In this document: one piece after another, positions 521 to 3,185 of the stretch
How the letters are laid out: the number at the start of each line of letters is the position of its first letter
Numbering within the stretch: the first letter of the stretch is position 1
DNA from: a virus
Length of the DNA: 20,210 bases
Virus record (IMG/VR): IMGVR_UViG_3300040790_000003
Span: 1 to 20,210 of that record
Direction: 5' to 3' (one strand)
Notes under the pieces: model-generated
What the model was told of the DNA's origin: nothing
Seen by the model: only the letters and a program-made list of their open reading frames with translations
Databases searched by the model: none
Translations under genes and position numbers: made by a program

Positions 521-778
521 TTATTCTACAAAAGTTACCTCGTTCTCTATTATCTCGTCAATCTTGTTCTGACAATGTTCTAAAAGTTCGATTATCGTCA
601 GGTCAGTATTGCCACCTCCGTAAGCTGTGTTAAGGAACTTCTCCACTTCCTTCTGAAACGAGTTACCCTTTGCTTTTAGCTGCTGCTTGAAATGGTTACT
701 TCCTCGCATTTCGTCCAGTGCGTAAACGAATAACTGCCCGTACACCATTGTTTTGATCGTTGTTTTGTACTCTTTCAT
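521..778 (-). CDS. Hypothetical protein, 85 aa
   Basis: I do not recognise the family with certainty. The product is small, mostly helical and charged, with a short Gly-Gly-Gly turn near residue 54 and an acidic C-terminus. The ATG overlaps the TGA of the helicase-loader gene upstream (ATGA at 775-778), so it is translationally coupled to it and probably belongs to the replication operon. There is no signal peptide, membrane segment or cysteine motif. Small helical proteins of this size next to DnaC-like loaders are common in Bacteroidota phages, but no function can be assigned. Confidence 0.75.
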   Translation of the reverse strand: MKEYKTTIKTMVYGQLFVYALDEMRGSNHFKQQLKAKGNSFQKEVEKFLNTAYGGGNTDLTIIELLEHCQNKIDEIIENEVTFVE

Positions 779-1419
779 TTCCTTAAATCTTCTCCTTTTA
801 CACCGATAAAATTAAACATCTCGTAGATACGTGATTCGATTCGCTTGCCGTACTTCTTGCCAATCATCTCAGCGTTGAGGTTGGTAGTAGCAAAGGTAAG
901 GTAACCCTTGTTCGTGTATAGCTGGTGTCGCTGTGTCAACGCATCAACTCCGACATTTATCTCAGTGCCGTAGCGTTTAATTGTCGTATGCTCTTCTCCG
1001 ATGTCATCAATGGCGAACATCTTGGATTTCATTGCTGTTTCTAAACTGAACAAGTCCTCGCCTTCTGCTTGATATATCCGCTCCATTTCAAACCCCGTGT
1101 AAATCTTGAACTTGAACTTCTGAGCGTAGCCCATAAATAAACTCAGAGATTTCAAATAAACCGTTTTCCCGACACCAGTAGAACCCATCAGAATTAAACC
1201 TTTGTCGGTGTCCCCGTTGAAGGAGTCCAACTGAAGAGCGTATCTCACAATTTGGTCAGTTAACTCAGGGTGCTTGTCTTGCCACTTCGGAAGAACATAT
1301 CGGCAGCACTTTTCAAATGCGAGCCGTGCGGTTTCAAAATTATGCTCTTCGTACTTTCGAAGCTGGTAACGAGCATCTTGCCCCTTCTCAATTCTGCTAA
1401 TGTAGTCGTCTATTCTCAT
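775..1419 (-). CDS. DnaC/IstB-like helicase-loader AAA+ ATPase
   Basis: The 214-aa protein carries a Walker A motif (GSTGVGKT, residues 79-86), a Walker B motif (MFAIDD, about 134-139), a sensor-1-like TFATTN (175-180) and an arginine-rich KRIESR segment (192-197) as expected for the Arg finger or box VII. This is the architecture of DnaC/DnaI/IstB ATPases, which load replicative helicase onto DNA. The gene overlaps the initiator gene by 4 bases (ATGA at 1416-1419), matching the initiator-plus-loader pairs of lambda (O/P) and many Gram-positive phages. No phage helicase is visible in the window, so it probably recruits the host DnaB or one encoded elsewhere. An IstB transposition role is unlikely, because no transposase gene is adjacent. 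Confidence 0.85.
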   Translation of the reverse strand: MRIDDYISRIEKGQDARYQLRKYEEHNFETARLAFEKCCRYVLPKWQDKHPELTDQIVRYALQLDSFNGDTDKGLILMGSTGVGKTVYLKSLSLFMGYAQKFKFKIYTGFEMERIYQAEGEDLFSLETAMKSKMFAIDDIGEEHTTIKRYGTEINVGVDALTQRHQLYTNKGYLTFATTNLNAEMIGKKYGKRIESRIYEMFNFIGVKGEDLRK

Positions 1420-2072
1420 GGGTATTCTACGTTTTCAAAGTTCTTAAAATCATACTGCTGGTTCTTCTTGAGATTATCGTCTTTAAACCAAATGCTTCGG
1501 GCTTTCTGTTTCCAATTCTTTACGGTGTTGCCTCTGCCATCCTTCCAAACTATTCCGCGAGGCTTTCTGCTTTCCTCGTAATATTCAAACATCTTGGTAG
1601 CTGATTCCTTAGTGTAACCGTTCTCATCAAAGTACGAAATTACTTCTTCAAGCGATGGTGGTGCTTGTTCCTTGTTTATTGGTTTACTTGTTTCTTGTTT
1701 ATCTATACTATCAATGCTTTCACTTTGCTTTGTCCCGTGCTTTATCAATGCTTTGTCAAGTGCTTTGTCAAGTGCTTTGTCAAAATTTGATAGGGCAACT
1801 ATGTTAGCAGAGTATTGATTCTTTGACCTTTGAACCATTGAAATAAAGCCCCATTCCACAAGGTCGTTTAAAGTGTTGATGTAAGTATTGTAAGACTTGA
1901 TTCCGATAGCTTCCATTGCCATCGTGGTCGGCATTCCGTACTTCTTCTTCCAGCCTAATCGGTTGCAATGTTCAACCGCAAAGAAATATAGAGCCGTGTG
2001 GTTTGGTTTTATCTTCTCAGGATTCTCGAAGCACCAATCAAACCAGTTTCGTGATAAGTCGTAGCCGCTCAT
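1416..2072 (-). CDS. Winged-helix replication initiator-like protein
   Basis: The 218-aa protein has an N-terminal part (about 20-95) consistent with a winged helix, including a predicted recognition region MAMEAIGIKSYNTY. A low-complexity linker follows (98-135), with DKALDKALDKAL and many Ser/Lys/Gln residues. The C-terminal region (about 140-205) has spaced aromatics and W-x-x-x-A-R-x-x-W, resembling C-termini of DnaD-like phage initiators. It is followed by the helicase loader in a 4-base overlap and preceded by the HNH gene in another. The linker-coding DNA carries the TGCTTT repeat array, as lambda O carries its origin iterons. The likely role is binding the origin and recruiting the loader; this rests on context and fold pattern rather than a strong signature. 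Confidence 0.65.
   Translation of the reverse strand: MSGYDLSRNWFDWCFENPEKIKPNHTALYFFAVEHCNRLGWKKKYGMPTTMAMEAIGIKSYNTYINTLNDLVEWGFISMVQRSKNQYSANIVALSNFDKALDKALDKALIKHGTKQSESIDSIDKQETSKPINKEQAPPSLEEVISYFDENGYTKESATKMFEYYEESRKPRGIVWKDGRGNTVKNWKQKARSIWFKDDNLKKNQQYDFKNFENVEYP
1668..1712. other. AT-rich stretch beside the iteron-like array (candidate unwinding element)
   Basis: By hand count 12 of 45 bases are G or C (about 27%). It contains three TTGTTT copies starting at 1672, 1688 and 1695. It abuts the TGCTTT array inside the initiator gene, as expected for a DNA unwinding element. Confidence 0.4.
1713..1783. repeat. Six iteron-like TGCTTT direct repeats, candidate replication origin
   Basis: TGCTTT starts at 1715, 1726, 1738, 1749, 1761 and 1773, spacings 11, 12, 11, 12 and 12. 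The last two units are identical 12-mers (AGTGCTTTGTCA), and the one before differs at one base. The 11-base steps shift the repeat relative to the codons of the surrounding gene: the first three copies fall in other phases than the last three. The repetition therefore is not only a by-product of a repeated peptide. The spacing is close to one helical turn, as for initiator-binding iterons. Confidence 0.6.
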
Positions 2073-2527
2073 ATTCTGTAATCTATAAATGAATCACTCT
2101 TTCTTGAATTACAACTTGCGCATAAAGTTTGCAAGTTGCTAAGTGTGTTATTTCCACCCTTGTTTACTGGTACAATATGGTCAGCAGTCAATTTCTTATT
2201 AGAACCACAACACAAACACCTCCAGCCGTCTCTTTTAAATAGCCATAGTCTAATGTTCTTTTTGCCAATAAATGCCTGAGCATCTCGTCTTGGCTGATTT
2301 CTTAAATGTGCTTTGAGTTCTGATAGATGACGAACACCTGTATCAAATATTGTTCTTAAAACAATGTATTCGTGGTCAGTAAAAACTTGTAATGTACTAC
2401 CTTCTCTAAGTAAATCACAATACTTCAATTGGTTATTATAAGTCAGGTATGACTGACCGTAAGAATCGTCTATATCCCACTTGATTTTTAATATATCATC
2501 AAGTATAGCATTTTTAGTTCTTGGCAT
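2069..2527 (-). CDS. HNH endonuclease
   Basis: The 152-aa protein ends in a clear HNH nuclease domain: a C-x2-C zinc knuckle at 104-107, ADHIVP (115-120) with the catalytic His, an Asn in NTLSN, and a second C-x2-C at 136-139. The first ~85 residues are unassigned and could provide DNA specificity. Many phage HNH genes sit beside the terminase, but this one lies in the replication module between the DnaA-like and initiator genes, overlapping the latter by 4 bases. By hand count of seven lines its GC is about 34%, against about 50% in the DnaA-like gene. A terminator-like hairpin ends 4 bases before its ATG. Together these suggest a free-standing homing-type nuclease or a late acquisition, which is inference. 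Confidence 0.85.
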   Translation of the reverse strand: MPRTKNAILDDILKIKWDIDDSYGQSYLTYNNQLKYCDLLREGSTLQVFTDHEYIVLRTIFDTGVRHLSELKAHLRNQPRRDAQAFIGKKNIRLWLFKRDGWRCLCCGSNKKLTADHIVPVNKGGNNTLSNLQTLCASCNSRKSDSFIDYRI

Positions 2528-2741: not shown

Positions 2742-3185
2742 TCAAGCACCCTCACTTTCCAGTTCTCCATATTTCGTGTGAATTGATTTAACTAACTTGT
2801 CTTGAACTTGAAGAGCGTGCCTCATCGTCTTGATGGAATACAGCACCGTTGAGTGGTCTCGGTAGAACATCTTGCCAATGTCTTGCAAAGAGTACCCGCT
2901 TCCGTATAACTCCCGATGCACTCTGTAGATAGCGTACTGCCGAGCAATGGTTACATTCCTCATTCGTGTCCGTGCTTTCATCGCTGAATAGCCGATGCCT
3001 GTAGCTTGCTCAACTCTGTTAATGATGTCTTTGCAACTTTTGTCGATGTGCTTCTCGCAGTAAACTCCTTGAATTGCAGCTAGTAGCGTTTGGCAATCCT
3101 CCCCGAAGTAACCTTGATGTAGGTCGATGATGTTAATTAGCTGCTCCTTTAGGCTTTGTGATAGTCGTATTACTTGCATCTCCAT
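2742..3185 (-). CDS. Protein with a DnaA domain IV-like DNA-binding region
   Basis: Residues 78-125 match the DnaA C-terminal domain IV pattern: an A-R-Q-x-A-x-Y helix, then LQDIGKMF and the signature R-D-H-S-T-V (109-114) that in DnaA contacts the DnaA box. No AAA+ ATPase motifs are present, and at 147 aa the protein is about a third of a full DnaA. It would bind DNA without oligomerising through ATP. Possible roles are origin recognition with the initiator and loader downstream, competition with host DnaA, or transcription control. It overlaps the preceding winged-helix gene by 16 bases. ATG at 3185 is used; a second ATG two codons later is possible. The fold assignment is fairly secure, the role is inferred. 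Confidence 0.75.
   Translation of the reverse strand: MEMQVIRLSQSLKEQLINIIDLHQGYFGEDCQTLLAAIQGVYCEKHIDKSCKDIINRVEQATGIGYSAMKARTRMRNVTIARQYAIYRVHRELYGSGYSLQDIGKMFYRDHSTVLYSIKTMRHALQVQDKLVKSIHTKYGELESEGA

Follow-up and report, generated by a model that had tools for sequence, protein, structure and literature searches.

The initiator gene and its neighbours

The window, a 20.2-kb stretch of an IMG/VR virus record, carries likely genes on the minus strand only, among them a replication initiator gene of 218 aa at 1416-2072 whose weak match to PHROG_18020 ('replication initiation O-like', 7.8e-4) may point to the lambda O family. The encoded protein comprises an N-terminal winged helix, a linker whose codons contain the putative origin described below, and a C-terminal domain. 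The first-pass annotation had proposed a winged-helix initiator, and this assignment holds: the DNA-binding N-domain (residues 1-94; 1791-2072, minus strand), folded alone with AF2, reached a mean pLDDT of 91.7. The linker showed pLDDT values mostly below 50, and the full-length AF2 model was poor outside the N-domain. Using Foldseek, the N-domain model was matched to viral replication proteins at E about 1e-4, and with weak E values to the PDB entries 5kbj (a Rep-DNA complex; rmsd 2.8) and 4pql, both of which we take to be Reps of pSK41/RepA_N-type plasmids. This resemblance exists at the fold level only; the RepA_N profile (pfam06970) gave no match in the initiator in the Pfam search. A Pfam scan of the initiator returned no match above the cut-off, a PDB sequence search retrieved neither a relative nor a solved initiator that matches at the sequence level, and members of the N-domain family gave weak matches to O-like, 'replication initiation protein' and DnaD-like PHROGs. 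The C-terminal domain (residues 138-218; 1419-1661, minus strand), which is exchanged independently of the N-domain, is presumed to contact the loader or the helicase.

The next gene downstream (775-1419, minus strand) encodes a DnaC-like AAA+ helicase loader (PHROG_50, 1.5e-12; NCBIfam PRK06835, 2.7e-11, which is under the cut-off of that model), so the earlier statement that a loader gene adjoins the initiator as in lambda was correct. Within 1.5 kb downstream, only 14 of the 111 relatives' loci gave a match to a loader like that of the window, and the partner gene therefore varies or diverges. Directly upstream of the initiator lies an HNH endonuclease gene (2069-2527, minus strand), the end of which shares four bases with the start of the initiator gene and which is possibly a homing element beside the origin gene. 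Further upstream, a gene at 2742-3185 (minus strand) encodes DnaA domain IV without the AAA+ part (Bac_DnaA_C, 5.2e-15). A phage DnaA domain IV is also annotated in the Polaribacter phage Danklef and was matched in 11 of the 111 relatives.

Six AAAGCA cores in the linker codons

Array 1 (1715-1778, minus strand) consists of six AAAGCA cores, which read TGCTTT on the plus strand and start there at 1715, 1726, 1738, 1749, 1761 and 1773, exactly where the first-pass annotation had placed them and within the linker codons. Along the gene strand the cores (1773-1778, 1761-1766, 1749-1754, 1738-1743, 1726-1731 and 1715-1720) follow each other in steps of 12, 12, 11, 12 and 11 nt. The proposed shift in codon phase is real, with three cores in frame 0, two in frame 2 and one in frame 1. 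The description as one repeat per helical turn is only approximate: the spacing is near one turn, but the mean step of 11.6 bp exceeds the 10.5 bp of B-DNA, relative to which five such steps drift by about half a turn. No other hexamer reached six copies in 70 bp across the 20-kb window; the runner-up, CTTGTT with four copies, belongs to the neighbouring second array. Tandem Repeats Finder reported a 12-bp array at 1726-1783. Given the peptide, 1.04 cores would be expected compared to the six observed, and none of 1000 synonymous permutations scored as high, as determined for locus L005, the gene of which is identical to that of the window and stands for it in the per-gene permutation.

DNA-level conservation of the cores in relatives

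To find relatives, viral contigs and bacterial genomes were queried with an alignment restricted to the N-domain; as the linker was excluded from the query, it cannot bias the matches. The best 80 of 459 viral relatives were kept together with 25 loci in bacterial genomes. The N-domain search, a first full-length search and phage Danklef, accession MT732458, together yielded 111 distinct ORFs with a recognisable linker, spanning viral contigs, one cultured phage and mostly Bacteroidota genomes. All 111 contain three to nine AAAGCA per linker, at a density of 27.6 per kb compared to 0.95 per kb elsewhere in the same genes (29-fold). The cores are spread over the three codon frames (302/184/197), and their steps are mainly 12 nt (342) or 11 nt (180). 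Between the cores both bases and residues vary while AAAGCA stays. The DNA repeats are thus kept despite changed codons, as the first-pass annotation had anticipated for homologous genes, and this is the opposite of a peptide that is kept while the repeats are lost.

In a set of 65 genes, each less than 85% identical to the others, 392 cores were observed, whereas synonymous permutation gave 118.6±8.1 (z = 33.7), and 64 of these genes were individually significant at 0.05. Linker lysine is written AAA in 97% of cases before alanine (frame 0) and AAG in 99% before histidine or glutamine (frame 2), compared to 79% AAA elsewhere; alanine after lysine is GCA in 98% (47% elsewhere), and serine inside the motif is AGC in 96% (15% elsewhere). 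Judging from these frequencies, codon choice follows the DNA motif in these linkers.

The triple pattern of AAAGCA cores separated by five or six bases (N5-6) was confined to the initiator gene in every one of the 16 family records scanned, which include four bacterial genomes of 3.5-5.8 Mb. One of the 16 records has a gene identical to that of the window. The reversed triple pattern, used as a control, had zero occurrences in these 16 records, and the triple pattern was absent from two phages whose initiator is of the DUF6291 type. Starting from the triple core, a reverse scan of IMG/VR gave, among the matches listed, many lysine-rich coding repeats outside the family, with 33 of 81 clusters being family members; the pattern alone is therefore not diagnostic.

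An AGTATA box and a second, AT-rich array

Three features go beyond the first-pass annotation: an AGTATA box, a second array and an exchange of cassettes. The AGTATA box (1704-1709, minus strand) starts 11 nt past the start of the last AAAGCA, and the same start-to-start distance was found in 54 of 58 thinned genes and in 100 of 104 overall. It is followed by array 2 (1664-1703, minus strand), a candidate DNA-unwinding element of AAC(A/C) repeats with an A-rich, G-poor sense strand, in which the AC(A/C) units (1696-1698, 1689-1691, 1681-1683, 1673-1675 and 1666-1668) are spaced by 7, 8, 8 and 7 nt. In 63 genes, AC(A/C) at lags 7 and 8 exceeded the synonymous null (z = 10.3 and 12.6, respectively) and a codon-order shuffle (z = 19.6 and 28.0). 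Tandem Repeats Finder independently called a period-7 array at 1664-1700.

Both composition and repeats show that an AT-rich, strand-asymmetric segment adjoins array 1. The 45-base low-GC stretch noted beside the cores in the first-pass annotation was recovered at 1668-1712 with 26.7% GC; its A+T content places it among the top 2% of the window, and its T-over-A asymmetry among the top 0.2%. The opposite strand of array 2 reads TTGT/TGGT. Known unwinding elements carry repeated AT-rich single-strand motifs, some of them T-rich such as TTGT (PMC10797057), and we regard the apparent likeness as a lead. Array 2 resembles the DUE of RK2 and oriC and the DnaA-trio in these repeated motifs, but differs in its pitch of 7-8 nt instead of 13-mers or trios, in being coding, and in having a candidate binder only.

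Exchange of the N-domain together with both arrays

In seven of eight informative comparisons between the window and its relatives the edge of DNA similarity fell at 1661-1669, only a few codons from where array 2 ends; in the eighth the similarity broke at 1678. Three of the loci compared (L014, L018 and L021) have the window's N-domain and another C-domain, and five (L044-L048) carry a window-like C-domain under DUF6291-type or Lin1244_N domains. The C-domain of the window shares 87-96% protein identity with DUF6291-type genes and 83% DNA identity with a Lin1244_N gene. The position of the edge implies that the DNA-binding domain travels with both arrays as one cassette, as would be expected of a domain that recognises the array.

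Some of the swapped-in DUF6291-type cassettes have linker repeats of their own, while none were seen in L045. In L003, L004, L044 and L046-L049, the DUF6291-type linkers (DSVSVN..., TVTDTV...) are written by short GT-rich DNA repeats with a pitch of 6-18 nt.

A putative replication origin in the initiator gene

We interpret 1664-1778 as a probable phage replication origin located inside the linker-coding part of the gene for its own initiator, and assign this reading, which rests on comparative sequence evidence, a probability of about 0.88. Within it, a coding origin like those of lambda O and the pSK41 Rep, composed of iterons and an unwinding element, appears to be the best supported form. 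Direct repeats between the DNA-binding and the C-terminal domain, with an adjoining loader gene, place the locus with initiator-embedded iterons.

Lambda iterons are 18-19 bp long and have dyad symmetry, whereas the core found here has only six bases, recurs 11-12 bp apart through all codon frames and is accompanied by an AT-rich part with ordered 7-8-nt repeats; furthermore, the N-domain is only weakly similar to O-like profiles. The arrangement is nevertheless that of the lambda/Stx ori in gene O, where direct-repeat iterons and an AT-rich, strand-asymmetric segment lie in the middle of the initiator gene, the helicase-loader gene comes next, and the iteron copy number differs between phages, adding residues to O (PMC7466680, PMC5043065). 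Likewise, oriL of SPP1 has repeats and an AT-rich DUE inside the initiator gene 38, with the loader encoded by gene 39 (PMC6316719). SPP1 has a second origin, oriR, whereas a second copy of the array was not found in the 16 family records. In the RepA_N plasmid pSK41, the N-terminal domain binds Rep boxes central in rep and the origin codes for the linker, and in the chimaeric rep of pPR9 the N-terminal domain plus origin is swapped against a conserved C-terminal domain (PMC5703833), the same exchange as observed here. The present locus differs from pSK41 in its phage context and in core and pitch, with 4pql and 5kbj matching at the fold level only.

Detrended GC-skew minima were located within 1 kb of the array in two of eight genomes (Danklef, 531 bp; G005, 640 bp) and 2.4-17 kb away in the six others. 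DnaA boxes were not enriched; TTATNCACA with one mismatch was depleted.

Among the alternatives, the strongest is that the repeats are an operator or copy-control array, to which the initiator binds to repress its own gene or to handcuff genomes, with replication starting elsewhere. Iterons act in copy control in some plasmids, and a protein bound to an array inside the gene could block transcription. However, the conserved AT-rich second array and the fixed box resemble an unwinding element and would be superfluous for an operator, no promoter-like site was present at the array on the gene strand, and arrays of this kind constitute the origin in the most similar known systems (PMC7466680, PMC5703833), leaving this explanation with a slim chance. 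A site for another DNA process appears slightly less probable again. Short repeat arrays also occur at packaging (pac), centromere, recombination and homing sites, and the HNH endonuclease gene lies directly upstream (2069-2527), but the array follows the DNA-binding domain of the initiator through exchanges, an HNH match was found anywhere in the locus in 7 of 111 relatives and just upstream in only three, and in Danklef the array lies away from the terminase genes.

It is hardly credible that KALDKAL... is selected as a helix or coiled coil with the DNA repeats as a by-product. Half of the six repeats do form in-frame 12-nt units and AF2 placed a low-confidence helix at residues 101-117, yet the motif occurs in all three frames, the codon for the same residue flips with phase, and AAAGCA is kept well above the synonymous null while flanking residues vary. 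The earlier argument that peptide repetition is an insufficient cause is thereby borne out, and peptide selection as the sole cause is refuted by frame rotation and codon switching. An RNA-level element in the initiator mRNA is equally implausible: in its favour, the conserved strand is the coding strand, but the region is less folded than shuffled sequence (z +1.5 to +1.8) and has zero Rfam matches.

Proposed mechanism at the candidate origin

From this anatomy and the precedents of lambda, SPP1 and pSK41, we infer that an origin at 1664-1778 would operate by iteron binding, melting and helicase loading, with replication starting at the arrays. The winged helix of the initiator would bind the six AAAGCA iterons on duplex DNA with about one protomer per 11-12 bp. 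Because the mean pitch exceeds that of B-DNA, the protomers would either form a spiral or hold underwound DNA. Array 1, once loaded with initiator, might strain or wrap the DNA, whereupon the A+T-rich, strand-asymmetric segment past the AGTATA box would melt. The 7-8-nt AC(A/C) array, with the T-rich TTGT/TGGT opposite, would serve as the unwinding element, its repeats probably being captured in single-stranded form by the initiator or the loader. The C-terminal domain would then deliver the melted DNA to the DnaC-like loader from the neighbouring gene, and this loader would load the host replicative helicase. The comparison of relatives shows that the linker peptide is for the most part carried along by the DNA: the candidate origin dictates the peptide, not the peptide the origin.

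Coding origins inside initiator genes have long been known. As far as the open-access literature was searched, the multi-frame six-base iterons of this family, its second array of 7-8-nt pitch and the comparative proof are new, and no description of origins of this phage family was found there; no origin is mentioned in the passages of the Danklef paper that were consulted. The result is a predicted, near unambiguous origin call from sequence alone for a phage family mostly of Bacteroidota with at least 459 viral-contig relatives. The swapped cassettes of N-domain and array provide a natural set for asking how winged-helix initiators read short iterons, and array 2 offers defined, ordered repeats for asking how an unwinding element is recognised.

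Similar arrays in other initiators

Several unrelated N-domain families of phage initiators might share one grammar of coding origins, in which 11-12-bp duplex iterons that may use all codon frames are followed by an AT-rich array of 6-8-nt pitch for single-strand capture, the core changes along with the N-domain, and the origin dictates the disordered linker peptide. We give this generalisation somewhat less than even odds and offer it as a hypothesis, because sample sizes are small and it was the AAAGCA pattern itself that led to the DUF1376-like family. In DUF1376-like initiators, AAGCAA recurs with an 11-nt period and occupies all three frames, with a permutation p of 0.0000-0.0135 in six genes and of 0.056 in one. 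In distant relatives from Riemerella phages, Marinitoga phages and a Levilactobacillus plasmid, different cores recur at 11-12 nt.

DUF1376-like and other initiators (L199, L217 and L294-L302) show linker arrays of AAAGCA/AAGCAA with an 11-12-nt pitch and, beyond them, short AT-rich repeats. The reverse scan of IMG/VR also gave, among the matches listed, other initiator-like proteins with AAAGCA-core linker arrays (L156, L183, L210, L221 and L228), and the core common to them could reflect convergence.
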